Below, piece after piece: positions 4,659 to 58,499 of a stretch of DNA of 64,000 nucleotides. The notes below the pieces were generated by a model. That model was not told where the DNA came from. It did not search any database and saw nothing but the letters and a program-made list of their open reading frames with translations. The position numbers and the translations under genes were made by a program. The DNA lies in the NCBI GenBank assembly GCA_019359175.1, contig JAHHHU010000006.1:62001-126000 (forward strand). The letters run 5' to 3'. This DNA comes from Phormidium tanganyikae FI6-MK23 (GTDB lineage: Bacteria; Cyanobacteriota; Cyanobacteriia; Leptolyngbyales; Leptolyngbyaceae). Positions within the stretch are counted from its first letter, which is position 1, and every line of letters begins with the position of its first letter.

Positions 4659-6491
4659 ATGCTATTGTCCCTGCGGATCGAAAATTTTGCGCTGATTGAT
4701 CACCTCGACTTGACGTTTGGGGCAGGACTGCACGTTCTGACCGGAGAAACGGGTGCAGGCAAATCGATTATTTTGGATGCGATCGATGCTGCGCTGGGTG
4801 GCAGGGTCACAGGTCGAGCGGTGCGAACCGGAGAAGAACGCGCCTCGATCGAAGCGACTTTCAAAGTGAATGATCTACTGAAAGCCTGGTTTGAGCAGCA
4901 ACAGATTGATTTGCTTGATGATGAGCTTGCAGTTTGTACTCGTGAAATTGTGGCGCTGGGGAGCGGTCAGCGGAATCGATCGAGAATTAACGGCGTTCTG
5001 GTGAATAAGCAGCAGATGGAAGCGTTGCGCGATCGCTTAGTCGAAATCACCGCGCAGGGGCAGACCGTTCAACTCGGACAGCCTAGCCTCCAGCGAGATT
5101 GGCTCGATAGTTACGGCGGTGTGGCACTGCTCAAACAGCGAGAAGTCGTGGGTCAAACATTTTCGAGCTATCAGCAAGCCGCTCAAGCGCTAGAAAAGCG
5201 CCGACATTCTGAACAACAACGCTTACAGCAGCTTGATTTATTCGAGTATCAATTGCGTGAGTTAAATGCTGCGAATCTCAACGATCCCGATGAACTAGAA
5301 CAATTGGAGCAAGAACGCAAGCGGCTGAGTCATAGCGTGGAATTGCAGCAGCAAAGCTATCAAGTCTATCAGGCGCTTTATCAAAACGAGAATGGGGATG
5401 ATGCTTGTGCGGACTTACTCGGCAAAGCGGAAAGTTTGCTCACTGATATGGTGCGATATGACGAGCAAATTCAGCCGATTCTCGATATCGTGTCTTCTGC
5501 ACTCTCACAAGTCGAAGAAGCAGGACAACAAATCAACGCTTACGGAGATGATCTTGAAACTGATCCGCAGCGGCTCCAAGAAGTCGAAGAACGATTCGTC
5601 GAATTAAAGCAGATTTGTCGAAAGTACGGCCCGAATTTGAGCGATGCGATCGCGCTTCAACAATCGCTCCAAACCGAACTCGAAGAACTCACGGGAGCAG
5701 GGCAATCAATCGAGGAACTCGCCACCCTCACCGAATCCCGCAAAACTCAACTGACTGAAGCCTCAGCACTTCTGACTCAATTGCGCCAATCGACCGCCCA
5801 AGGTTTAGAATCGCGCCTGATCGCAGAACTCAAACCGCTGGCAATGGAAAAAGTGAAATTTCAAGTGGGAATTACACCGATCGCGCCTACAGCAGCGGGA
5901 AGCGATCGTATTACCTATCTCTTCAGCCCGAACCCTGGCGAACCCTTGCAACCGCTCACCGAAATTGCATCGGGCGGGGAAATGAGCCGATTTCTCTTAG
6001 CGCTGCAAGCTTGTTTCTCTCAAGTTGATTCGGCTGAAACGCTTATATTTGACGAAATCGATGTCGGTGTCTCCGGTCGAGTCGCTCAAGCGATCGCAGA
6101 AAAACTCTACCAACTCGGTCGGCATCATCAAGTATTGTGTGTGACTCACCAGCCGATCGTGGCAGCAATGGCGGATCAGCATTTCAACGTGGCGAAACAA
6201 GTAATCGAACTGAGCAACGGATCGCAAAATGGCAACGGAGCCAGCGCGGATCTGAGAACGATTGTGCGAGTGAATCCGCTCAATCAAGAACAGCGTCGTC
6301 AAGAACTCGCCCAGTTAGCCGGCGGTGCTGGATCGTCTGAGAATGGGACGACTGAGGCGGCAGCGATCGCGTTTGCGGATTCATTGTTAGCGCAGGCGAC
6401 GAGTTTGAGAAATGGTGCGGCTCCGGTTGAGGAGCTACCCGAGCCCGTGGAAGTGCCCAAGAGAAAAGCTCGATCGACTCGAAAGCGGTAA
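4659..6491 (+). CDS. recN: DNA repair protein RecN
   Basis: A 610-residue SMC-like ATPase involved in early processing of DNA double-strand breaks. The N-terminus opens with MLLSLRIENFALID and has a Walker A motif GETGAGKS (29-36). A long Gln/Glu-rich coiled coil fills roughly residues 160-380. The C-terminal ATPase half has the ABC signature SGGEMSRFLLAL and Walker B LIFDEIDVGVSG. The last 40 residues are an unusual Pro/Lys/Arg-rich tail (PEPVEVPKRKARSTRKR) that could contact DNA. Length is slightly above the usual 550-570 because of an insertion in the C-terminal lobe and this tail. It is transcribed alone from a good promoter and ends in a hairpin shared with the next gene. Confidence 0.95.
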   Translation: MLLSLRIENFALIDHLDLTFGAGLHVLTGETGAGKSIILDAIDAALGGRVTGRAVRTGEERASIEATFKVNDLLKAWFEQQQIDLLDDELAVCTREIVALGSGQRNRSRINGVLVNKQQMEALRDRLVEITAQGQTVQLGQPSLQRDWLDSYGGVALLKQREVVGQTFSSYQQAAQALEKRRHSEQQRLQQLDLFEYQLRELNAANLNDPDELEQLEQERKRLSHSVELQQQSYQVYQALYQNENGDDACADLLGKAESLLTDMVRYDEQIQPILDIVSSALSQVEEAGQQINAYGDDLETDPQRLQEVEERFVELKQICRKYGPNLSDAIALQQSLQTELEELTGAGQSIEELATLTESRKTQLTEASALLTQLRQSTAQGLESRLIAELKPLAMEKVKFQVGITPIAPTAAGSDRITYLFSPNPGEPLQPLTEIASGGEMSRFLLALQACFSQVDSAETLIFDEIDVGVSGRVAQAIAEKLYQLGRHHQVLCVTHQPIVAAMADQHFNVAKQVIELSNGSQNGNGASADLRTIVRVNPLNQEQRRQELAQLAGGAGSSENGTTEAAAIAFADSLLAQATSLRNGAAPVEELPEPVEVPKRKARSTRKR

Positions 6492-6511
6492 GGGAGTTGC
6501 TGATTGATAAA

Positions 6512-6536
6512 ATCGCAGAGAAACTTTCTCTGCGAT
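6512..6536. terminator. Bidirectional hairpin between recN and the Rieske gene
   Basis: Perfect 12-bp arms (6512-6523 and 6525-6536) around a single central base, placed between two convergent stop codons. The RNA loop would open to at least three bases. Confidence 0.6.
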
Positions 6537-6539
6537 GAT

Positions 6540-7943
6540 CTACTTACGCTTCTCTAGTAGGTTTCTCGCTGGGGTGCGTTGTCCCTCGTAGAATCTGCGC
6601 TCTAGATTGTGCAATACAAGCCAAGCGGAACCTGCAATCACAGGCACGATTGCGGCAAATATTGCAATAAACAAAGAGGAAGGTTGAAAGACGATCGACA
6701 TTAACGGTAACAACGCCCAAGACAATCCGCCCATGATCGCGATCGCGATTTTGAGTTGTTGAATTCGCTTCAAAGCAGTGCGACAGCTTGAACAATGAAT
6801 CGTATGAGAGTGATATCGATCGAGCAATTGTTCGATCGATTGCAATGGCGGTAATGCTTCACCTGGAAATGGATCAGCTTCAAACTCATTCACCCACTTG
6901 CGTAAGCTTGATACAAACGAATCTGCACGAGTCGGCAAGTAGAAAGCTTTCGCGAAGTTCGGACTTCCACCTTTTTCTGTTAAATAACGTTCTTGATAGT
7001 GCAAAAAGATTTGATCGTCCTCAAGCACTGTATTGTTACCTAAATGCGAATACCAACGCGGGGTGAGCTTGATAAAAAAGCTAGGTAGCTTTGAAGCAAA
7101 CTTAAAGGGAAATCGAGCAAAGACGCGACATTCACCTTTTCTCATTGGAGTTGCATACACAACGGTGAGTGTTCGACCAAATTGTTTCGAGGTCAAATCA
7201 TGCCACATCAATGCAGGAGCAATGAACCTGGTATGCTGCGATCCTAATGTTCCTTTGCGCGGCCCTTCTTGCCAGAAGCCTGTAAAGCCTTGTTTATCAG
7301 ACTCTAAAATTTCGAGTTCAACCGGGGAAGCATTCGATCGATTACCTACGGATTTGTGATGCGTAAACGGCACATGACTCGCATCAAGCACATTCTCTAA
7401 CAAAGTCAAAGCATCGTAAGGCAAATCGCGAAAGGTATTCAAACACACCCATTCATCGGGAGATTCTTCCATCGGTTCAATGATTGGGATTTTGACTTGC
7501 TCCGGGTTGTTCTTACCGGGATAAATGAAGAGTAATCCTTGACGTTCAGCGGTGGCATAGGACGCAACACACGCGCGTTTGGATTCGTTGGCTAGAGTTC
7601 CTTCGGGTTGTTGGGGAATACGATCGCACTTTCCATCCCCTTGAAATGCCCATCCGTGATACGGACATTCAAGCAGTCCATCTTCTGCGATTCTGCCTTC
7701 TGAGAGCGGTGCTAATCGATGCGGACATTGATCTTCAAAGGCTCGCCAGCTTTGAGCCGCTGCATCCCACCAAATCACCAGATCTTGTTCTAGAAGCGTG
7801 AACTTTGTGGGCTTCGTTTTGTCCAAATCTTGAATATAGGAAACGGGATACCAAGCTTCTTTCCAATCAAAGCGGGTCGGGTCAGTTCCACCAGCGGGAA
7901 GTGCATTCGCTTGAGTCGATGGAAGATGTTGATCGATCAGCAT
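6540..7943 (-). CDS. PaO-like Rieske oxygenase with C-terminal CxxC and membrane anchor
   Basis: A 467-residue non-haem iron oxygenase related to pheophorbide a oxygenase, Tic55 and ACD1-like proteins of plants and cyanobacteria. The Rieske [2Fe-2S] ligands are C73xH75 and C93xxH96 (CPHR ... CPYHGW). The mononuclear iron site fits H190 and H195 in NVLDASHVPFTHH and an Asp at 309-310. A redox-type CxxC lies at 384-387 (HCSSC), followed by two hydrophobic helices at about 397-418 and 423-446 that would anchor it in a membrane. The family oxygenates chlorophyll breakdown products or related cyclic substrates; the substrate here is unknown. It is convergent with recN and divergent from rnz. Confidence 0.88.
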   Translation of the reverse strand: MLIDQHLPSTQANALPAGGTDPTRFDWKEAWYPVSYIQDLDKTKPTKFTLLEQDLVIWWDAAAQSWRAFEDQCPHRLAPLSEGRIAEDGLLECPYHGWAFQGDGKCDRIPQQPEGTLANESKRACVASYATAERQGLLFIYPGKNNPEQVKIPIIEPMEESPDEWVCLNTFRDLPYDALTLLENVLDASHVPFTHHKSVGNRSNASPVELEILESDKQGFTGFWQEGPRKGTLGSQHTRFIAPALMWHDLTSKQFGRTLTVVYATPMRKGECRVFARFPFKFASKLPSFFIKLTPRWYSHLGNNTVLEDDQIFLHYQERYLTEKGGSPNFAKAFYLPTRADSFVSSLRKWVNEFEADPFPGEALPPLQSIEQLLDRYHSHTIHCSSCRTALKRIQQLKIAIAIMGGLSWALLPLMSIVFQPSSLFIAIFAAIVPVIAGSAWLVLHNLERRFYEGQRTPARNLLEKRK

Positions 7944-48135: not shown

Positions 48136-48302
48136 CGCAACCTTGGCAGAATTCCACTTCTTCACCTTGCAACGTTCATCAGTCGATCGAACCGTTTCGT
48201 TATATTTCTTGATTACATTCGTGACAAATTTCGTATTCAGCTTTACAGCTTAGAAGGTTCAGTCAATTCTATTAATCAAGTAGCTTGATAAGGTGATTGG
48301 CT

Positions 48303-49733
48303 GTGAAGTTAGCAAATTATGATCCAGGGCACTTTTACGATGAGTTGTTTGACGCACCCGGATCGCCTCGAAAAGAAGTGATTCCGCTAGTTGATCGCAT
48401 TAATTCACTCTCGATCGAGGAAATTCAGCGTCGGCAGCAAGCTGCTCAGGTTGCATTGTTCAAAATGGGCGTGACCTTCAACGTTTACAGCGACAATCAA
48501 GGAACCGAGAAGATCTTTCCGTTTGATATTTTGCCAAGAACGATCGCGGCTGCGGAATGGCAAGTTTTGGAAAAAGGACTGAAGCAGCGAATTTACGCGC
48601 TGAATCAATTTCTCGCGGATGTGTATGGGGATCAGAAGATTATCAGCGATGGCGTGATTCCCGCAGATGTGGTGTATTCGTCTCAAGGATTTCTCAAGCC
48701 TTGTGTGGGTTTGAAGCCACCGAAAGGAATCTGGTCGCACATTAGCGGGATGGATTTGGTGCGCGATCGAGACGGTCAGTGGTACATCCTCGAAGACAAT
48801 TTGCGCTGTCCGTCTGGCGTGTCTTATGTGCTAGAAGGGCGGCGGATTATGAAAAGTACGCTGCCACTGGTCTTTGATCGAATGCAAATTCAGCCCGTGG
48901 AAGAGTATCCGAGTCATTTGCTTGAGACATTGCTGAATCTTGCACCTGATTATATTGATGATCCGACGGTTGTTTTACTCACGCCGGGGATTTATAACTC
49001 TGCTTATTTTGAACATTCTTATCTGGCTCAACAGATGGGAGTTGAATTAGTCGAAGGGCGCGATTTGGTCGTGTCTGATGGTTATCTTCAGATGCGAACG
49101 ACAAAGGGTTTGAAGCGGGTCGATGTGATTTATCGTCGGATTGATGATGAGTTTATTGATCCGCTGGCGTTTCGTCCCGATTCGCTGTTGGGCATTCCAG
49201 GATTGATGGAAGTTTATCGATCGGGTCGCTTGGGTCTTGCGAACGCGCTAGGAACTGGAGTCGCAGACGATAAAGTGATTTATGCTTATGTGCCGCAGAT
49301 GATTCGGTACTACTTGGGCGAAGATGCAATTCTCGCGAATGTGCCGACTTATCTCTGTTGGGAGCCATCGCAGTTAGATCATGTGCTGGCGAATCTCGAT
49401 AAATTGGTGGTCAAGGCTGCGAATGAATCGGGCGGCTATGGAATGCTGATCGGGACACAATCGACTCAAGCAGAGCGAGAAGTATTCGCGGCAAAGATTA
49501 AAGCGGCTCCACGAAACTATATTGCTCAACCGACGCTTTCTTTATCGCGCGTTCCGGCTTTGATGGGCGACGAGTTTGAAGGCTGTCATGTGGATTTGCG
49601 CCCCTACATTTTGTATGGGGAGGATATCTATGTGACTCCGGGTGGTTTGACTCGTGTGGCGCTGAAGAAGGGATCGCTTGTAGTGAATTCCTCTCAGGGC
49701 GGTGGCTATAAAGATACTTGGATTGTGAGTTGA
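48303..49733 (+). CDS. Circularly permuted ATP-grasp protein (DUF404/DUF407)
   Basis: A 476-residue circularly permuted type 2 ATP-grasp enzyme. It opens with [12 protein letters not shown] and has the conserved [38 protein letters not shown], the ATP site [25 protein letters not shown], and C-terminal [14 protein letters not shown] with [30 protein letters not shown]-type strands (here [14 protein letters not shown]). The family is thought to form peptide-like bonds and typically partners alpha-E and transglutaminase-like proteins. The frame opens at TTG 48297; GTG 48303 fits the AAGGTG ribosome-binding site better. The alpha-E partner follows after a repeat. Confidence 0.9.
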
Positions 49734-49785
49734 GGTGGGCTTGTTGCACGTAAGACGCTCTTCGCTTCGTTTTAGTCGGATAGCT

Positions 49786-49953
49786 GCCCCCTAAATTCCC
49801 CATTCTGGGGGACTTTGAAAAGATGAAGCGATGTTGTGATTAAGTGAACGTGCTTTTGAAAGACACCACCTAAATTCGACTTCTACAGTCTTGTCTATCT
49901 ACTCAATTCATTTTCAATTCTCAAAGTCCCCCATCCTGGGGGATTTAGGGGGC
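49786..49953. repeat. Degenerate relative of the MITE-like element, copy B
   Basis: Inverted arms of 30 bases at 49786-49815 and 49924-49953 belong to the same family as copies A and C (GCCCCCTAAAT ... GGACTT), but the spacer is 108 bases instead of 21 and unrelated. The left flank (TTCGCTTCGTTTT) resembles the inverted right flank of copy C, while the terminal repeats are not clear and no target duplication was found. It lies in the 267-base gap between the ATP-grasp and alpha-E genes. Confidence 0.65.
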
Positions 49954-50000
49954 GAACCCCTAACAATCTGAACTCAAAGTTGTTTTATTAGAGACCAAAA

Positions 50001-50948
50001 ATGTTAAGTCGAGTAGCAGATTCGATCTATTGGATGAATCGATATGTGGAACGTGCAGAAAACATTGCGCGATTCATTGATGTGAATCTAACCTTGCTGT
50101 TAGATGTACCGATCGGGGTTTCGCAGCAGTGGAAACCGTTAATTCTGACGACGGGCGATTTGCCCATTTTTGAAGAACGATACGGAGAAGCAAACGCGGC
50201 GAATGTGATCCGATTTTTGACCTTCGATCGTACTTATCCGAATTCGATTATTTCCTGTCTTCATGCCGCCCGCGAAAATGCGCGATCGATGCGTGAAATC
50301 ATTTCTTCAGAGATGTGGCAACAAATCAATGCGTTTTATCACTTTGTCAATGATGCTGCAAACGAAGAGACACTTAATTTTCAGACCTTTTTCAGGGAGG
50401 TTAAGCTATCCAGTCACTTGTTTGCGGGAATTGCGAGTGCAACGATGACGCATAACGAAGGGTGGCATTTTGGACTGATAGGGCGCTGGCTAGAACGAGC
50501 AGACAAAACCAGTCGAATCGTGGATGTGAAGTACTTTATTCTATTGCCATCAGTGCGCGATGTCGGGACAACCTTGGATCAGTTGCAGTGGATTGCATTA
50601 CTACGATCGACAAGTGCGTATGAAATGTATCGGAAACGTGGACTGCATCGAATTACACCCACTTCAGTCGCAGAATTCTTAGTCCTCGATCGAGAATTTC
50701 CTCGATCGATTCGCTACTGCATTCGACAAACAGAGCGATCTTTGCATCAAATCACTGGAACCCCTCAAGGCTCGTGGAATACAGGCGTTGAGCGTTGTCT
50801 TGGAAAACTGCGATCGGACTTGGATTATTTAACGATCGACGATGTGATGGAAGCTGGACTGCATGAATTTCTCGACGATCTACAGCGACGCACAAACGAA
50901 GTTGGAATCAAACTTTCTGAAACCTTTTTTGCAGTGCAACCTGTTTAA
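50001..50948 (+). CDS. Alpha-E domain protein (DUF403)
   Basis: A 315-residue all-helical protein of the alpha-E family. The N-terminus MLSRVADSIYWMNRYVERAENIARFIDVNLTLLLD is the family signature. AARENARSMREIISSEMWQQINAFYHFV and GWHFGLIGRWLERADKTSRIVDVKYFILLP are further conserved Glu/Arg-rich helices. It normally lies directly behind the circularly permuted ATP-grasp gene and is predicted to work with it in peptide-bond or modification chemistry. Here a palindromic repeat separates the two, and another element stands just after this gene. No transglutaminase-like or protease partner follows in the window. Confidence 0.9.
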   Translation: MLSRVADSIYWMNRYVERAENIARFIDVNLTLLLDVPIGVSQQWKPLILTTGDLPIFEERYGEANAANVIRFLTFDRTYPNSIISCLHAARENARSMREIISSEMWQQINAFYHFVNDAANEETLNFQTFFREVKLSSHLFAGIASATMTHNEGWHFGLIGRWLERADKTSRIVDVKYFILLPSVRDVGTTLDQLQWIALLRSTSAYEMYRKRGLHRITPTSVAEFLVLDREFPRSIRYCIRQTERSLHQITGTPQGSWNTGVERCLGKLRSDLDYLTIDDVMEAGLHEFLDDLQRRTNEVGIKLSETFFAVQPV

Positions 50949-51085: not shown

Positions 51086-51256
51086 ACGTCAGTTCGACAG
51101 AAGTGGCTTGCTCCGTTTGGGAATCCAGGAAGCCCCCTAAATCCCCCAGAATGGGGGACTTCAAGCCAAAGCTTCCGGTTCAAAGTCCCCCATTCTGGGG
51201 GATTTAGGGGGCAGAAGCCGCTTGCAACGAAGCGAAAAAACTCGTCGAACTGACGT
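51086..51256. mobile_element. MITE-like element, copy C (171 bp) with 7-bp target duplication
   Basis: Flanked by TTATTTA at 51079-51085 and 51257-51263. The terminal inverted repeat is perfect over 13 bases: ACGTCAGTTCGAC at 51086-51098 against GTCGAACTGACGT at 51244-51256. The inner arms (51132-51161 and 51183-51212) match 30/30. Flank lengths (46 and 44 bases) and spacer length (21) equal those of copy A apart from 2 bases. It occupies the gap 50949-51314 between the convergent alpha-E and hybrid kinase genes; nothing else is visible there. Confidence 0.8.
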
Positions 51257-51314: not shown

Positions 51315-53159
51315 TTAGCAAGTCAGTCCAGCATCAAGTAAAGCAGTTCTTAGTTGCGCGATCGCTTCTGATTGCAAATTTGCCTGCTTTGAGAGAACTG
51401 CGACCACGCGCGTTTGAGTCAGTTGTTTCAATTCTGTCGCACTTACCTGTTTTGAGGTCATGATGATCACCGGAATTGCGCGAGTGGCTGAGTCGGCTTT
51501 TAGCTGCTCTAACACTTCAAAGCCATCAATTCCGGGCATCAATAGATCAAGTACGATCGCGTTAGGTTGCTCAGTTTTGGCGCGGTAAAGTCCTTCGTAT
51601 CCATCTTTTGCTTCTATCGCTGTGCAGGATAGCTGAGAGAGCAAATGAGCGATCGTATAGCGAGAAGTCGCTTCATCATCAATGATGAGAACTTTCTGAG
51701 CAAATTGATCTACTTCAGATGGGTTGATTGATGCTGTACTTTGAGCTTTGGGATCGTTTGGTTGCGGTAAGGAAGCTGTCTGATAGCGAATGGGCAAGGT
51801 AACACAGAACGTAGAGCCACCTTCTAAGGAACTACTCACACCGATGCTTCCTCCGAGTAGCTCTGCTAATCTTTTACACAGCGGTAGTCCAAGTCCGGTT
51901 CCCTTAAATCGACGTTGCAGCGGGTGATCGATTTGAACGAATTCTTCAAAAATGCGCTGCTGATCTTCGATCGCAATTCCAATTCCAGTATCTGAAACGG
52001 TAAATACGATCGTTTGATCGGCTCCTGGTTTTGCGCTCACTCGGACTTCTCCGCATTCGGTAAATTTCAGCGCATTAGAAACAAAGTTCCGCAGAATTTG
52101 AGAGATCTTGCCTTCATCCGTGTATAAAACAGGTAGATTTGCACCATCCTCAAAGACTAATTTTACTGCACTATTTTGACTGAGTAGCGGACGCAGCATT
52201 CCCCGTAAAGCACCAAATAGCTCCTCAACTTGAAAAGTAGTTACATTGACTTCAACTTTGCCCGCTTCCACTTTTGCTAGATCCAGCAAATCATTGACTA
52301 ATTCAGTCAGCGATTCTGCCGATCGACGAATGAAGGTGACTTGCTTCTCTTGCTCTTCGCCCAAATCGCCGTCTAAGTGATCGAGCAACATATCAGAGAG
52401 ATTGAGAATGCCATTGAGCGGAGTGCGAAACTCATGACTGAGATCTGCAAGAAATCGCGTCTTTAGTTCACTTGCTTTTTGGAGTGACTCAGCACGATCG
52501 TTTAACTCTGCATACAGCGCCACAACGCCACGGTTGGTGTCTTCTAGCTCTTGATTTAATCGAGTGAGTTCCTCTTGTTGTTGTCGAAGTTCTTCTAATG
52601 CGGTTAATAGTTCCTGATTTTGTTGCTGAACTTCAGCGTAAGGGTTTTGAGGATCTTGACGTAAAAGTTGATCAACGAGTTGTCCGATCTGCTGTTGAGT
52701 CAGAATTGCACTGTGCTTGGGAAGATATTTGAGCAGATAAACGATAGTTCCTCTTCCCGCTTGAGAGTCAATCTCTACAGCATCCATTAACCGTTTTGTA
52801 CCGATTAGGCCTAGTCCCATTCCAGTTGTCGATCGATGGTTTCCGCTCAAAATTGCAGGTAAATTGTCGATGCCAGATCCAGAGTCCGAAACGCGCATTA
52901 ACAAGGCTTGGGAAGGCTCTTTGGTGATGGAAAACTCAGCTTTTCCGCCTCCAGCATACAAAAAGGCATTCCTAACAATTTCGGAAATCGCAGTCGAAAT
53001 GCGAGTTTGCTCCTGAGTATCAAAACCAAGCTGATCAGCAATCTGGCGGGCACGTTGACGCGCTAAAACAACATCTTGCTCATAGCGAATCTCGACGGTA
53101 AGGATCGCTAGCTTTGATAGTTCAGAGAGGTTGTTTTGCTTGCGATCGAAAAAATTCAT
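51315..53159 (-). CDS. Hybrid kinase: RsbT-like ATPase, histidine kinase and receiver
   Basis: A 614-residue protein, last gene of the stressosome module. Residues about 15-145 are an RsbT/RsbW-type ATPase (TVEIRYEQDVVLARQRARQIADQLGF ... TGMGLGLIGTKRLMD). A coiled coil spans about 175-230. The HisKA domain has H242 (FLADLSHEFRTPLNG), and the second ATPase domain has SNALKF, SDTGIGI and GTGLGLPLCKRL. A receiver domain (about 487-605) has the phospho-acceptor D538 in VLDLLMPG. The start ATG shares one base with the upstream stop (TGATG), behind GAGGAGG. It probably converts stressosome state into phosphotransfer; the final output is not in the window. Confidence 0.92.
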   Translation of the reverse strand: MNFFDRKQNNLSELSKLAILTVEIRYEQDVVLARQRARQIADQLGFDTQEQTRISTAISEIVRNAFLYAGGGKAEFSITKEPSQALLMRVSDSGSGIDNLPAILSGNHRSTTGMGLGLIGTKRLMDAVEIDSQAGRGTIVYLLKYLPKHSAILTQQQIGQLVDQLLRQDPQNPYAEVQQQNQELLTALEELRQQQEELTRLNQELEDTNRGVVALYAELNDRAESLQKASELKTRFLADLSHEFRTPLNGILNLSDMLLDHLDGDLGEEQEKQVTFIRRSAESLTELVNDLLDLAKVEAGKVEVNVTTFQVEELFGALRGMLRPLLSQNSAVKLVFEDGANLPVLYTDEGKISQILRNFVSNALKFTECGEVRVSAKPGADQTIVFTVSDTGIGIAIEDQQRIFEEFVQIDHPLQRRFKGTGLGLPLCKRLAELLGGSIGVSSSLEGGSTFCVTLPIRYQTASLPQPNDPKAQSTASINPSEVDQFAQKVLIIDDEATSRYTIAHLLSQLSCTAIEAKDGYEGLYRAKTEQPNAIVLDLLMPGIDGFEVLEQLKADSATRAIPVIIMTSKQVSATELKQLTQTRVVAVLSKQANLQSEAIAQLRTALLDAGLTC

Positions 53160-54193
53160 CACGCCTCCTCATTTCTCAACTTCGCGACGAGAACAGCAAC
53201 ATCATCTGGCGCTCCTGCGGGGTTCCGCACACCAGATCGCTGAAAATCTCGATATAGAATCGCCGCAATCAAAGCAGGATGCCGATTGATCAAACCAGGA
53301 TAGCGATCGAGCATCCATTGTGTTCCTAATCCATCTGAGTGCATCACGAGCAAAGATTCGGCTGACCAAGGGTAGGAAAACTCAGCCACTTTACGAACCG
53401 TTAACCCCAGTGTGCCGTTGTAAGACACCATACTGCGGCTCGAACTTCTAGTAACGATCGCTCCAAAAATGTTGCCGATCCCCGCATATCGAATCAGTTG
53501 TGCGCTTGGTAGAATTTCAGCGATCGCGGCGACTGCTCCTCGTGTACTGCGTAATCCTGCATGAATTTTGTCTAAAATCTCTGCGGGATGTAAGTCTGCA
53601 TGGGCTCGAAAAATCTTCACCGCTGTTCGTGATGCTTCAGCGGCTAAAGTACCCGATCCTAATCCATCTGCAACGAGAATCAGAGCGCGATCGCGCTGTT
53701 GTTCGATCGCCCAAGCATCTCCAGAGATTTCTCCTCGGCGTTTCGGCAGATTCACAGTTCCCACTTCAAAAGGTGCATTTGCTTCCTCATGCTGCGCCCA
53801 CAATCGCGAAACTAGAGCCGTTCCCACTTGAGGCAAAGAATAGATATCGAACATTGCAGAGAGTCGCTGAATTGCGCCTAACCCAGTTCCAGGCGTTCCC
53901 GCTGTCGAAAAGCCATCTTGCAAGCATTGACTAACATTCTGAACGCCGGGAGCTGAATCCAGCGCAATGATTTCGATGCCGACCCCTTCAGCAGTCTTAA
54001 GCGGTTGGATTAAGAGTTCTCCGTTTTGCGCGTGTTTGAGTAAGTTCCTAGTTGCTTCGGTGACGATCAGCGCAACTCTTCCGCGATCGGTTTCATCAAA
54101 TCCAAGCTCGATCGAGAGCGTTACAGCAAGTCGTCTTGCTTCACCCACTTGGCTATCTTCGGTAATTGGTAATGCGATCGGTTTTCTAGTCAT
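53159..54193 (-). CDS. RsbT-like ATPase fused to a PP2C (SpoIIE/RsbX-type) phosphatase
   Basis: A 344-residue protein. Residues about 15-135 are an anti-sigma-type ATPase domain with N box EATRNLLKHA and G2 box GTGLGAIQRL. The C-terminal 200 residues are a PP2C phosphatase with metal-binding GDAW, VADGLGSG and the terminal PDDVAVLV. In stressosome operons the phosphatase at this place (RsbX) dephosphorylates RsbS and RsbR to reset the complex. A fused ATPase domain is known in RsbX-like proteins outside Bacillus. ATG 54193 is preferred to TTG 54196. It follows rsbT by 131 bases with no visible gene. Confidence 0.9.
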   Translation of the reverse strand: MTRKPIALPITEDSQVGEARRLAVTLSIELGFDETDRGRVALIVTEATRNLLKHAQNGELLIQPLKTAEGVGIEIIALDSAPGVQNVSQCLQDGFSTAGTPGTGLGAIQRLSAMFDIYSLPQVGTALVSRLWAQHEEANAPFEVGTVNLPKRRGEISGDAWAIEQQRDRALILVADGLGSGTLAAEASRTAVKIFRAHADLHPAEILDKIHAGLRSTRGAVAAIAEILPSAQLIRYAGIGNIFGAIVTRSSSRSMVSYNGTLGLTVRKVAEFSYPWSAESLLVMHSDGLGTQWMLDRYPGLINRHPALIAAILYRDFQRSGVRNPAGAPDDVAVLVAKLRNEEA

Positions 54194-54324
54194 CAATGAT
54201 AGGTGAAGTGAACGATGCGCGACTTAACCTCCGATGAAGAGCTTTTAGCGTTAGAAAATAACAAGGCGAGTCGGCTTTAACAGTACTGCGAGTTGTGGCT
54301 GAGTTCAGACTATCTTTGGAGAGA

Positions 54325-54726
54325 TTATCGCTGCCACCGAATGACTTTGATCCAGGTTCCTTTACCGATCGCTGAAGTGATTTCAAACTCACTTACCAAT
54401 CGCTTTGCGCCTCCTAGCCCGAGTCCTAACCCTTTCCCAGTGGTATAGCCATCTTGCAATGCTAGATCAATATTCGCAATGCCAGGGCCTTGATCCTCAA
54501 AGCTGAGTTGGAGTCCGGTTTGAAGATCGCGCTTTACTTCTTCTAGCGTCACCGTTCCACCGTTGCCATATGTGAGCGTATTCCGAGCTAGTTCACTCGC
54601 AGCGGTAACAATCTTCGTTTGCTCAACCAAGCTAAATTTGAGGCCGATCGCCCACGATCGCACTTTTTGACACACTAAAACAACATCGGACTGCGATCGA
54701 ATCTCGACCACTTCAGGGCTGAACAT
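54325..54726 (-). CDS. rsbT: Stressosome kinase RsbT
   Basis: A 133-residue serine/threonine kinase of the GHKL fold, the same length as Bacillus RsbT. It has VVEIRSQSDVVLVCQKVRSWAIGLKFSLVEQTKIVTAASELARNTLTYG, with the N box, then EDQGPGI and the G2 box GKGLGLGLGGAKRL. RsbT phosphorylates RsbS and RsbR and is then released to act on downstream partners. The frame opens 30 bases earlier, but ATG 54726 has AGGAGA 8 bases upstream and leaves a 14-base overlap with rsbS. The position after rsbS matches the usual R-S-T order. Confidence 0.9.
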   Translation of the reverse strand: MFSPEVVEIRSQSDVVLVCQKVRSWAIGLKFSLVEQTKIVTAASELARNTLTYGNGGTVTLEEVKRDLQTGLQLSFEDQGPGIANIDLALQDGYTTGKGLGLGLGGAKRLVSEFEITSAIGKGTWIKVIRWQR

Positions 54727-55108
54727 GGTTGCCGTTCTCCTGGGATGGCAATCCAAGCGAGTTTTGTAAAAGTGCTATGCCCCTATCTACGCTCAAAGCG
54801 GTGCGAATTCCTGTGAGAGATAGCCCCAACTCGACTAAAGTGATCGCCACCGCAGGCTGCATTCCGACAACAACGGTTTCTGCATCTAAAAGTTGAGAGA
54901 CCGTTGCAATATTGCTCAACACCCGCCCGATGAAGGAGTCTACAATCTCTAGCCCAGAAATGTCGATTAGCACGCCTTTGGCTTCGGTTTTGACAATGCG
55001 ATTGGTGAGATCATCTTGCAGTGTTAAGGCCAAACGATCGTGCATATCCACCTGAATGGTCACCAAAAGAAACTGACCCACTTTCAGAATTGGGATTTTT
55101 TCCACCAC
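54713..55108 (-). CDS. rsbS: Stressosome scaffold STAS protein RsbS
   Basis: A 131-residue single STAS domain protein. The phosphorylation loop is LIDISGLEIVDSFIGRVLSNI with S58 at the position phosphorylated by RsbT in Bacillus. The rest (ETVVVGMQPAVAITLVELGLSLTGIRTALSVDRGIALL) is the typical RsbS fold, and the length fits. RsbS and RsbR build the icosahedral stressosome core that holds RsbT until stress triggers its release. It starts 28 bases after the RsbR stop and overlaps rsbT by 14 bases. Confidence 0.92.
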   Translation of the reverse strand: MVEKIPILKVGQFLLVTIQVDMHDRLALTLQDDLTNRIVKTEAKGVLIDISGLEIVDSFIGRVLSNIATVSQLLDAETVVVGMQPAVAITLVELGLSLTGIRTALSVDRGIALLQNSLGLPSQENGNHVQP

Positions 55109-55136
55109 GCTACCTCAATGCAAAGAATTGCATGAC

Positions 55137-56000
55137 TTAATCTTGTTTTGGAACGACTTTTAATCCTTGCTGCTTGAGCGCGATCGCAAACGCATCGGCT
55201 AGAGTCGCTTTCGTAATCACAGCGGAAAGGTCTACTCCTAAATGTACGATCGTTTGCGCGATTTGGGGACGAATGCCGCTGATGATACAGTCAGTTCCCA
55301 TCAATCGAGCGGCAGCAACCGTTTTAAGTAGGTGCTGTGCGACGAGTGTATCGACCGTAGGCACTCCGGTGATGTCAATAATCACAACTTGCGCTCCCGT
55401 TTCGACAATCTGCTGAAGCAGAGATTCCATCACGATTTGAGTTCGGGTGCTGTCTAGCGTCCCAATCATCGGCAGCGCGAGAATGCCTTGCCAGAGCTTG
55501 ACCACGGGCGTAGAGAGTTCTAGAAGTTCTTCTTGCTGGCGCAGAATGGTTTCTTCACGGGCTTTTTGATAAACCTCCATTGTCCAGAGTCCGAGCTGAT
55601 CGAGCAGCGTAGTTAAAGACGCGATCGCATCAGTAAAGAGATCGCCCTGCTGAGAAACTCCCTGCCGCAAGCGATCAAACAATGGTTTTTTGAAGGAGAA
55701 CACAAACAGCGCCACTTCTGAGGGTGTAAAGCCTTGCTGCACACGAGAGCGAGAAATATCAGCCAAAAACTGACGTACACTGCTCCATTCTGGAGCTTGA
55801 ACATCGCTTAAGTTGTAATGCTGAACGGCACTGCGTAACAGGCGTAAAAACTCTATACATTGCTGATCGAGTTCGCCTTTGCGAATCAAATCGCGCCGCA
55901 ACAGCTCAGACGTTTCTAGCTCTGTTTGCCATTCTTGCAGGAGTCCGGCTTCGTCTTGTTCCAGAATCTCGGCAATTTTGCTGGCACTACTGATTGGCAT
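55137..56000 (-). CDS. rsbR: Stressosome sensor RsbR (N-terminal RsbRD-like, C-terminal STAS)
   Basis: A 287-residue co-antagonist. Residues about 10-150 are a helical RsbRD/globin-like sensory domain (EQDEAGLLQEWQTELETSELLRRD ... SRVQQGFTPSEVALFVFSFKK). A linker helix (145-165) leads to the STAS domain (165-285), with LWQGILALPMIGTLDSTRTQIV and VIIDITGVPTVDTLVAQHLL. T218 in VDT corresponds to one RsbT phosphorylation site, and S184/T185 lie at the other. ATG 56000 is chosen over 56015 because GGAG lies 9 bases upstream. It is the first gene of the module; the signal sensed is unknown. Confidence 0.9.
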   Translation of the reverse strand: MPISSASKIAEILEQDEAGLLQEWQTELETSELLRRDLIRKGELDQQCIEFLRLLRSAVQHYNLSDVQAPEWSSVRQFLADISRSRVQQGFTPSEVALFVFSFKKPLFDRLRQGVSQQGDLFTDAIASLTTLLDQLGLWTMEVYQKAREETILRQQEELLELSTPVVKLWQGILALPMIGTLDSTRTQIVMESLLQQIVETGAQVVIIDITGVPTVDTLVAQHLLKTVAAARLMGTDCIISGIRPQIAQTIVHLGVDLSAVITKATLADAFAIALKQQGLKVVPKQD

Positions 56001-56142
56001 TCTCGATCGCTCCATTCCACACTCTAAGTTCTAGCTAACCGTAGGAGTTCGTTCTTACGGAATACATCCTGGGACAGATCTGTTGAAGTCTTTCTAATTT
56101 TGAATGAGAAACAATGTAGGTAATTGATGATTCTTTGGTTCT

Positions 56143-58080
56143 TTATCTTATAAGTGCAACGATCGCTTCGATGAGTTGTTCAACATCTAGCGGCTTTGAG
56201 AGATGAATGCGATATCCAACAGCAAACGCTTGCTGCTTCACCGATTCATCAAGATAGGCAGTCAGCGCGATCGCAGGGATCGACTGATCTGGAATTAGAC
56301 CGCGAATTTCACGCAGCAGCATATACCCATCCTTTCCGGGCATTGCAATATCACTGACTAGAATCGCGGGACAAAACGCCTGAAATTGCTTGATCGCTTC
56401 GTCTGCCGAAGTCGCGATCGCAACGATCGCACCTTGATCCTCTAAGACAAATCTGACAAATTCGAGGCTATCAAAGTCATCATCTACGAGTAGAACTTTT
56501 AGCCCGTTTAAGCCGTCCTGAACTTGCAAACTGGGCGGAGAACTATCGATCAGCGGCAATGTGACAGCAAAGGTCGCGCCTTGTTCTGCGCCTCGACTGG
56601 TTGCAGTAATTGTGCCTTCGTGCAATTCAACTAGCTCACGCGAGATCGCAAGTCCGAGTCCCAATCCATCCTGCGATCTCGGTGCATTCGTTTGGGCTTG
56701 TCGAAAGCGATCAAACACAAACGGCAAAAACTCTGCACTAATCCCTTTCCCGGTGTCACTGACGCAAATTTCGATGTGTGCATCTCGACGGGTTAAGGCA
56801 ATTTCGACTCGCCCCTGCTCAGGCGTGAATTTGATTGCATTCGTAAGCAGGTTCCAAACCACTTGCTGCAAACGGTTTGGATCTCCTAACACTTCATTCA
56901 CAGCGTGATCAATGTTCGATTCGATTTGAATCTGTTTTACTTCAGCGAGTGGACGAACCATATCGATCGCGGCTTCAATCACGAGCGGCAAACTGAGCGG
57001 AACGCGATCGATTCGCAAATTGCCTTGCACCATGCGGGAAACATCTAGCAAATCCTCGATGAGCTGCAATTGATTTTTTGCACTACGTTCGATCGATTGC
57101 AATGCACGAGTCAAAGTCGCGGAATCGGGGGCTTTTGATTGCAATAGTTTTGACCAACCAAAGATAGAATTGAGCGGCGATCGTAGTTCATGCGCCACGA
57201 TTGCAAGAAATTCATCTTTGCTATGGTTTGCAGTTTCGGCTTCTGTACGTGCGACTTGAGCTTGATGTAATAGTTCATCGCGTTCGGCTTGAGCTTGTAC
57301 TCGATCGGTGACATCGCGCCACGCGGAAACAAATCCATCCTCTAGTTTTGACGATCGAATGTCATAAAACCGCGCGAGATCCTGATCCCCAACCGTATCA
57401 GAATACTCAAATGATTCTTTAATGAGTGGTTCCCCAGTTTCCACGATTCGACAATGTTCTGCAAATGCACCGCTTTCACGATAGTGCGGAAACGTTTCAG
57501 AAAGTGTTTTCCCAATCGCGTCTTCGCTCAACCGATTACTTTCAAGAGCAATCCGATTCCAGTAGTCAATCCGAAAGTCGATAATTTGTCCGGTGTCGTC
57601 TCGAACTGTGGAACAGATGCCAAAGCAATCGAGCAAGTTTTCGATCGAAGTCCGAAACCGTTCTTCGCTCTGTTGAAGTTTGCGGCGCAGATCAGCATTT
57701 TCGATCGCGCTTCGCATTGCCGATCTCATTTCTTCCGGTACGGTTTGCCCTTTCACAAAATAATCTTCAGCACCATGCTTAAAGGCAGTTGCAGCCGTTA
57801 CCGCATCGTCATAACAACTCACCACAACGACAGGCGGACAAGCTCCCTGCGTCTGCGCTTTCAGTCGGTTTAAAAACTCAAATCCATCCAAGTCGGGCAG
57901 CTTGATATCTAACAAAATTCCGTCCGGTAGCTGCGTTCGGCAAAGCGCTAATCCTTCTGCTGCGGAGGTGCTTTCAAGAATGGTATAGGAGACCTGAGAG
58001 TCAGCCAGCAAATACCGTCTGAAGATATAACGATCGGTTTCAGAATCTTCGACGATCAAGACGGTTCGGTGCTGTATCAT
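56143..58080 (-). CDS. Hybrid histidine kinase: receiver-PAS-HisKA-ATPase-receiver
   Basis: A 645-residue soluble phosphorelay kinase. The N-terminal receiver (about 5-125) has D58 in GILLDIKLPD. A PAS domain spans about 138-262, with the downstream AWRDVTDRVQ border. HisKA carries H297 (FLAIVAHELRSPLNSIFGWSKLL), and the ATPase has NLLTNAIKF, VSDTGKGIS and GLGLGLAISREL. A C-terminal receiver (about 527-640) has D577 in LVSDIAMPGKDG. ATG 58080 follows GGAG by 6 bases and replaces the upstream 58098 start. It lies 142 bases upstream of rsbR on the same strand, so it may share regulation with the stressosome module. Confidence 0.92.
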   Translation of the reverse strand: MIQHRTVLIVEDSETDRYIFRRYLLADSQVSYTILESTSAAEGLALCRTQLPDGILLDIKLPDLDGFEFLNRLKAQTQGACPPVVVVSCYDDAVTAATAFKHGAEDYFVKGQTVPEEMRSAMRSAIENADLRRKLQQSEERFRTSIENLLDCFGICSTVRDDTGQIIDFRIDYWNRIALESNRLSEDAIGKTLSETFPHYRESGAFAEHCRIVETGEPLIKESFEYSDTVGDQDLARFYDIRSSKLEDGFVSAWRDVTDRVQAQAERDELLHQAQVARTEAETANHSKDEFLAIVAHELRSPLNSIFGWSKLLQSKAPDSATLTRALQSIERSAKNQLQLIEDLLDVSRMVQGNLRIDRVPLSLPLVIEAAIDMVRPLAEVKQIQIESNIDHAVNEVLGDPNRLQQVVWNLLTNAIKFTPEQGRVEIALTRRDAHIEICVSDTGKGISAEFLPFVFDRFRQAQTNAPRSQDGLGLGLAISRELVELHEGTITATSRGAEQGATFAVTLPLIDSSPPSLQVQDGLNGLKVLLVDDDFDSLEFVRFVLEDQGAIVAIATSADEAIKQFQAFCPAILVSDIAMPGKDGYMLLREIRGLIPDQSIPAIALTAYLDESVKQQAFAVGYRIHLSKPLDVEQLIEAIVALIR

Positions 58081-58499
58081 ATGATCTCCAGCGTACATAG
58101 CGGCGAAATTGAATTGCGCTATGTGAATTTAAACAGGGATAGCATAATCCTATGAGAAATGGTTTTTTATTAATCGAAGCAATACAAATCGAAGCGATAC
58201 AGAAAGTATTAATTTGAAGTGCGATCGCCTTTTCAAAACGGTTAATCTTAAATCTGCTGATTCTTCGTACCCATTTCGGCAAATTCAGCGTTTAAGAAGC
58301 TTTGCCTCCTCACTTTAGTTCTCACACGGAAGTAAATGAGGAGGGTTGGTCTTGTTTGTTAATTTCATCTTCAACTTACCAAAGTATTTCGCGCTTAAGT
58401 CGGAGTCACACCGAAACATTACCGTGATCGCTTTTGACGTGCTATCGATCGCCCGTTCGTGGTTTGAACACGGACGGGACAGAAACAAGCTCAAAAGCA
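58081..58499. other. 419-bp gap without a supported gene
   Basis: Two short minus-strand frames (up to 80 codons) have no family match, poor start context and Cys/Ser/Arg-rich shadow-like composition. The region holds the promoter of the hybrid kinase gene and the 3' flank of the DUF2358 gene. I see no strong hairpin or repeat. Confidence 0.4.

Follow-up and report, generated by a model that had tools for sequence, protein, structure and literature searches.

The 64,000-nucleotide stretch of contig JAHHHU010000006.1 analysed here (the window, within which all coordinates are given) carries on its minus strand, at 51315-56015, a five-gene stressosome operon. Open reading frames and Pfam matches identify RsbR, RsbS and RsbT, followed by an RsbX-type phosphatase and a HisKA-HATPase-receiver histidine kinase, each carrying a fused RsbT-like domain of its own. 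We tentatively propose, with confidence just short of even, that this is a stressosome with a two-component phosphorelay as output instead of sigma-B, the kinase being docked through its RsbT-like domain. Judged from homology and linkage, this domain would most likely hold the kinase on RsbS and RsbR until RsbT-driven phosphorylation frees it. An initial annotation of the same DNA had given the same gene order, which both the reading frames and Pfam confirm; it had placed the operon at 51315-56000, correct at the start and short at the end, where RsbR runs to 56015.

The hybrid kinase occupies 51315-53162. According to Pfam it consists of an RsbT-like domain (residues 17-147, 52722-53114; HATPase_c_2, 5.4e-16), a coiled coil, HisKA with the phospho-His box SHEFRTPLN (52260-52463; 1.2e-19), a catalytic HATPase_c domain (51789-52118; 4.1e-41 for the best stretch) and a C-terminal receiver (Response_reg, 51375-51692; 1.5e-17) with its phospho-Asp in LDLLMPG, all on the minus strand. 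The ETNRGVVALYAEL linker between the RsbT-like domain and HisKA (residues 202-232, 52467-52559, minus strand) is defined by its conservation and by a helix in the structural model. With HisKA, HATPase_c, receiver, phospho-His and phospho-Asp all present, the protein qualifies as a hybrid histidine kinase.

The genes preceding it in the operon, likewise on the minus strand, form an RsbRST module followed by a phosphatase. The RsbR-type co-antagonist (55137-56015) joins an RsbRD_N sensor (6.4e-26) to a STAS domain (7.8e-15) and, aligned to RsbR chains solved by electron cryo-microscopy, keeps both phospho-Thr sites, VDT and AQT. RsbS (54713-55108), a single STAS domain, matches the solved RsbS structures 6jhk and 6qcm over nearly its full length (phmmer, 7.6e-32 and 1.7e-29) and keeps the phospho-Ser (VDSFI). 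RsbT (54325-54726, ATG start) is a stand-alone GHKL domain matching HATPase_c/HATPase_c_2, with 40% identity to Listeria RsbT and intact N-box, G1 and G2. RsbR, RsbS and RsbT are thus adjacent and in order with their Ser/Thr phosphosites present. The fourth gene (53159-54196, probable ATG start at 54193) encodes, by Pfam, an RsbT-like HATPase_c_2 domain and a SpoIIE/PP2C phosphatase. Because the phosphatase half scores 77.6 bits against Listeria RsbX while RsbU is not among the reported matches, it is best read as an RsbX-type protein with an added RsbT-like domain, which narrows the PP2C assignment made at first; the protein is likely to act as a feedback phosphatase. The rsbS/rsbT and phosphatase/hybrid kinase gene pairs overlap.

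Profile match, tree, motifs and predicted fold all mark the N-terminal domain of the hybrid as an RsbT paralogue. In a domain tree (81 rows, 133 columns kept, bootstrap not settled, one of four own-genome outgroup reading frames omitted), the hybrid domains fall together (24 rows, 88/98), and so do the RsbT-like domains of the phosphatases (24 rows, 100/99). The main RsbT group (24 rows, 99/97) consists of operon RsbT proteins, without Listeria RsbT, and leaves outside the RsbT rows of the distant genomes at loci L039, L040 and L041. The three groups nest in a single one (93/87) that excludes SpoIIAB, RsbW-like proteins and a kinase catalytic (CA) domain. This is further supported by the window's hybrid domain, whose identity to Listeria RsbT is 37.7% and to Listeria RsbW 28%. 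The membership in the RsbT group on which the initial annotation had staked its reading is therefore borne out by the tree and by the HATPase_c_2 match (5.4e-16).

The AlphaFold2 model has a mean predicted local distance difference test score of 84.5, with 87-94 in the RsbT-like block except for 67-78 around model residues 81-100. Its predicted fold matches SpoIIAB (Z 15.5-16.3) and RsbW (Z 14.1-14.2) better than histidine-kinase catalytic domains, which reach Z 9.1 at best (RetS) and are also outranked by LvrC of Leptospira (Z 11.3) and SiaB (Z 10.0). The fold is thus of the RsbW/SpoIIAB/RsbT type, the matches listed including no RsbT chain. Tree, Listeria identities and fold scores together rule out an ordinary kinase CA domain or an RsbW. 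A further idea, that of the two the hybrid domain comes closer to a true RsbT, was dropped: when matched to Listeria RsbT, the operon RsbT scored best at 65 of the 68 loci, the hybrid domain at 3. Each of the three RsbT kinds clusters with its own kind across phyla and keeps its ATP-binding boxes; the three paralogues were likely already distinct before the operon spread.

The linkage of the hybrid to the stressosome is close and recurrent. A scan of species genomes yielded at least 456 relatives, and the best 80 loci were analysed. Of these, 67 carry the complete R-S-T-T::RsbX-T::HK series in order on the same strand, 8 are interrupted by a contig end and 5 consist of the phosphatase-hybrid pair without RST nearby. 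Because the same five genes recur in the same order in 67 of the 80 related loci, a chance arrangement is excluded. Median intergenic gaps are about 16, -26, 1 and 2 nucleotides (starts taken from the longest reading frames). A kinase gene stands directly after the hybrid in 51 of the 67 complete loci; 4 are interrupted there by a contig end and 12 have none.

In a sample of 244 genomes of the phylum, the domain and linker occur together in nine, eight relatives and the window's own, all with the five genes in the same order, and in two further genomes an RsbT-type match stands alone. The genomes in which RsbS was found are these same eleven. The expected co-occurrence of hybrid and rsbRST is therefore upheld by 9 of 9 hybrid genomes with RsbS and by the 67 complete loci, which rule out a hybrid living mostly without a stressosome. 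The genome-search counts are lower bounds, as only the first candidates per genome were scored (for example 8 of up to 150, or 16 in the linker search). Outside the phylum, domain and linker are present in at least 7 of the 349 Pseudomonadota genomes sampled, the sample centre among them (8 loci, 7 of them in a full operon), and in at least 3 of 149 Acidobacteriota genomes, centre included (3 of 3 in a full operon); RsbT-type matches alone occur in at least 16 and at least 10 further genomes, respectively. Nineteen of the best 80 loci are non-cyanobacterial by their record labels, from which the phylum was taken; Desulforhopalus vacuolatus and Alsobacter metallidurans are named strains, and most others are metagenome bins. 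Named strains with the arrangement belong to Cyanobacteriota, Pseudomonadota, Thermodesulfobacteriota and Deinococcota, where Deinococcus radiodurans carries the operon on megaplasmid pMP1, and metagenome bins add further phyla. A restriction to cyanobacteria is thereby ruled out.

We compared residues of the three RsbT-type domains across 68 loci, the 67 complete relatives and the window. The loci were picked by the patterns [QH][QR]QNQELL and TA[VI]SEI[AVG]RN. These bias the choice towards the N-box and the coiled coil's first half, but not towards residues 202-232, so that the N-box counts in part reflect the selection itself. The putative catalytic Glu45 is present in 68 of 68 RsbT, hybrid and phosphatase domains alike, and the G1 Asp in 68, 67 and 68, respectively. 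Hybrid domains keep the N-box Asn and the G1 Gly in 67 of 68 cases each, and the G2 Gly also in 67 of 68, a count taken from a different alignment. Such conservation would suit a fused domain acting as a second Ser/Thr kinase on RsbS and RsbR, or on its own receiver or linker, and feeding back on the stressosome rather than carrying its output. We regard this as improbable: the ATP boxes may serve docking alone, and a decayed Caballeronia domain described below shows that they can be lost.

Arg19, Arg23 and residue 24 of RsbT have been implicated in RsbU binding, and Asp92 is a predicted contact to the RsbU linker (PMC12143880; PMC9237128). R19 is kept in 67 of 68 RsbT, and in all hybrid and phosphatase domains; R23 is kept in all RsbT and hybrid domains and in 0 of 68 phosphatase domains. 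The single deviating RsbT at position 19 (Listeria RsbT numbering) is that of the window (54325-54726), which has Cys where the other 67 rows have Arg. RsbU_N (PF08673), the known RsbT receptor, has no match in the hybrid protein or in the window's genome at E 0.01; of 23 further hybrid genomes outside the phylum sample, searched at E 0.001, 22 have none.

The linker stands out in the kinase for its conservation. Among 81 sequences its mean modal frequency (residues 202-232) is 0.86, the highest of the stretches compared, followed by HisKA (0.83), HATPase (0.76), the first half of the coiled coil (0.75), the RsbT-like domain (0.69) and the receiver (0.52). It lies on one predicted 73-residue helix at the end of the AlphaFold2 model, running into HisKA, and its consensus in hybrid kinases and in relatives lacking the RsbT-like domain is ETN[RQ]G..ALY.ELD. 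Searching 98 genomes of the phylum with the linker found it in 3, all hybrid genomes. At E 1e-14 linker kinases were found in at least 12 of the 349 Pseudomonadota genomes, all 12 beside rsbT, five with a fused RsbT domain and seven without.

These results give some room to a different model, in which stress-released free RsbT binds the kinase linker as it binds the RsbU linker and switches the kinase on, the fused domain modulating or competing. The top-ranking conservation of the linker, above that of the RsbT-like domain, its confinement to hybrid genomes among the 98 searched in the phylum and the seven proteobacterial kinases beside rsbT that have no fused domain all argue for it. RsbT is reported to make the RsbU linker form a coiled coil (PMC12143880). 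RsbT also keeps R19, R23 and D92 in 8 of 8 operons examined whose kinase lacks the domain. In the hybrid operons D92 is present in RsbT at 67 of 68 loci, even though the search of 23 hybrid genomes left 22 with no RsbU_N match. Nevertheless we consider this model unlikely. It leaves unexplained why a motif-intact RsbT-like domain persists in four phyla; by eye the linker does not resemble that of Listeria RsbU, within a single kinase family one would in any case expect conservation of a helix that runs into HisKA, five of the seven linkers without a fused domain read NQG rather than NRG, and the window's own RsbT has the Cys at position 19.

Several observations weigh against docking through the RsbT-like domain as well. 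Asp92 is kept in 67 of 68 RsbT and 68 of 68 phosphatase domains but in just 2 of 68 hybrid domains, and for this reason we call the hybrid domain an RsbT paralogue with an altered surface, not RsbT itself; residue 24 is variable in all three kinds. RsbU_N matches exactly at the curated cut-off in one of the 23 hybrid genomes outside the phylum sample, and at E 0.01 in 6 of the 8 other hybrid genomes within it, all below that cut-off. Among the five loci with a phosphatase-hybrid pair without nearby RST, RsbS lies elsewhere in three of the genomes and was not found in the other two, both metagenome bins. A Caballeronia plasmid hybrid (L139, about 4980-6743) has lost the N-box Asn and the G1 Asp. 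Finally, the seven kinases without the domain among the 349 Pseudomonadota genomes stand in R-S-T-T::RsbX operons and have a closely similar linker, with a core of NRG in two and NQG in five. As this clade keeps operon and linker, the RsbT domain is dispensable there.

In a tree of kinase cores, from which L191, L193 and L194 were left out for want of a match to the linker pattern, the kinases without the domain form one clade (100/99) with a Variovorax plasmid kinase; the tree does not distinguish loss of the RsbT domain from gain. For the same reason, namely that the clade retains operon and linker without the domain, the linker may itself receive RsbT, and together with the linker's conservation this suggests that the linker also matters, perhaps as a site of RsbT-type action. 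The annotation of the 29-kb Xanthomonas vasicola plasmid pXVH29 (L218) shows a run of genes for two STAS proteins, one anti-sigma regulatory factor, two ATP-binding proteins and a response regulator; the latter of the two ATP-binding proteins has the linker and, judging from its size, probably lacks the RsbT domain. The Caballeronia hybrid with its decayed domain has linker and kinase start intact. The hybrids at L031, L032 and L034 are 518-530 residues long, with a receiver that looks shortened at the end; it seems to have been lost in this lineage.

That a whole clade does without the domain would also fit a vestigial domain, or one that does no more than cap the dimer and has no part in the stressosome, its link to the operon being historical. 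This is a very improbable explanation given the motifs kept in 67-68 of 68 domains, the close linkage to rsbRST and the reuse of the RsbT module on other kinases. In Phaeobacter and in G386 an RsbT domain sits on a HisKA_2 kinase, and in G414 and G422 the RsbT domain and linker precede another HisKA family. At L138 (5875-7035) and L192 (2955-4121) an RsbT-like domain on a HisKA_2 kinase closes an R-S-T-T::PP2C operon. In a distant genome of the same phylum (G044), two kinases beside rsbRST have RsbU_N in place of the RsbT domain (L040, L041). At one locus of this genome the RsbT-like domain of the phosphatase is a separate gene, which joins the phosphatase group at 100/99 and therefore points to fusion of formerly separate genes.

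Taken together, fusion and linkage are most simply read as docking that phosphorylation undoes, a parallel to the RsbX-type phosphatase tethered by the same kind of domain. Gene order, co-occurrence with RsbS, the tree, the retained Glu45, G1 Asp, R19 and R23, the predicted fold and the lack of RsbU_N matches in the window's genome and in 22 of the 23 others speak in its favour. From gene content, homology, motifs, linkage and variants, all directly seen, we infer docking, release, control of the kinase and relay to a second kinase as follows. At rest, the RsbT-like domain of the kinase would sit, like RsbT, on the STAS surfaces of RsbS and RsbR and hold the kinase on the complex. Under stress, RsbT would phosphorylate RsbS and RsbR and free the kinase, whose RsbT-like domain and coiled-coil linker could then adopt an active arrangement, comparable to the action of RsbT on the RsbU linker in trans. 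The active HisKA-HATPase core would feed a His-Asp relay through its own receiver and perhaps also the second hybrid kinase. On the phosphatase, the RsbT-like domain would in turn bring RsbX activity to phosphorylated RsbS and RsbR and so reset the complex.

The docking and linker readings fit together if the domain switches between the STAS surface and its own linker. In this more speculative and rather doubtful extension, the fused kinase would be a one-chain partner switch, with its RsbT-like domain moving back and forth between the kinase's own ETNRGVVALYAELD coiled-coil linker and the STAS surface of RsbS/RsbR. The linker would then be a general, as yet unnamed receptor for RsbT-type domains that couples stressosomes to histidine kinases in many phyla, in cis as in the window's operon and D. 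radiodurans, or in trans as in the proteobacterial kinases without the domain.

A possible partner lies next to the operon. A second hybrid kinase (56143-58098, minus strand; receiver, unassigned middle region, HisKA, HATPase_c and receiver by Pfam) lies 127 nucleotides upstream of rsbR on the same strand, and extends the locus beyond the five genes described initially, which themselves stand. In most of 29 other matches listed it shows 37-43% identity to the kinase genes adjoining hybrids in relatives, an identity to which resemblance among kinases in general may contribute. Between 46055 and 62034 the scan took in 13 proteins: the five of the operon, the second kinase and seven neighbours. 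None of them is RsbU, RsbV, RsbW or SigB, in line with the initial annotation for sigma-B, RsbV and RsbW, nor a sigma factor of any kind, a further STAS protein or a further single-domain HATPase_c_2 protein. Elsewhere in the genome, on other contigs, there are four genes for single-domain HATPase_c_2 (RsbW-like) proteins. Just downstream of the hybrid gene, at 51132-51205, is a palindromic repeat of about 74 nucleotides of the CCCCCAGAATGGGGGA type, with 73 matches in the genome, both strands counted and hence in fewer places. Adjoining the operon on the plus strand (48297-50948) are genes for a circularly permuted ATP-grasp protein and then an Alpha-E protein.

The operon bears on the signal output of stressosomes without sigma-B: it is conserved, and in it an RsbT module is physically part of a kinase; the variants without the RsbT domain, with another kinase or with RsbU_N permit direct tests of which piece carries the signal. 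No description of an RsbT domain fused to a histidine kinase or to RsbX was seen in the parts of the open literature searched, though key reviews fell outside its scope and an earlier account is possible. Stressosome coupling to two-component systems as such is known, as the initial annotation had noted. PMC9237108 describes rsbRSTX modules with single-domain RsbX followed by HisKA/receiver proteins, some with RsbU_N on the downstream protein. The Vibrio vulnificus rsbRSTX locus with VvD1 and VvD2 (PMC9237108, PMC10014275) resembles the window in its RsbR, RsbS, RsbT and RsbX-type phosphatase followed by HisKA/receiver proteins, and in having no sigma-B, RsbV or RsbW. It differs in that RsbX is a single-domain phosphatase and that the parts of these reports at hand mention no RsbT domain on the downstream kinase, whereas in the window both proteins carry one; RsbT and the downstream kinase VvD1 gave no positive interaction (PMC9237108). 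RsbU_N-type stressosome kinases (PMC9237108; L040, L041) also adjoin rsbRST, and their N-terminal element is believed to link them to RsbT, but there the adaptor RsbU_N receives RsbT, while the window's hybrid has an RsbT-like domain in its place.

The rsbRSTUVW-sigB-rsbX operon of Bacillus and Listeria shares RsbR, RsbS, RsbT and an RsbX-like phosphatase domain; the window's operon differs in lacking adjoining RsbU, RsbV, RsbW and SigB and in ending in a histidine kinase. Bacillus cereus RsbK/RsbY likewise ties a hybrid histidine kinase to a stress partner switch, but there the kinase stands above the phosphatase, and the portions of the source available do not mention an RsbT domain (PMC7522486). 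The D. radiodurans pMP1 operon has RsbR, RsbS, RsbT, an RsbT::phosphatase, an RsbT-HisKA-HATPase-receiver fusion and a further kinase, as does the window. DR_B0028, which we infer to be the fused kinase, is reported among regulatory proteins raised after vacuum exposure, and DR_B0028 and DR_B0029 are two kinases whose regulation is thought to be shared with an anti-sigma-factor operon (PMC6501615). Gene inactivation is practised in this carrier of the operon (PMC8363230).

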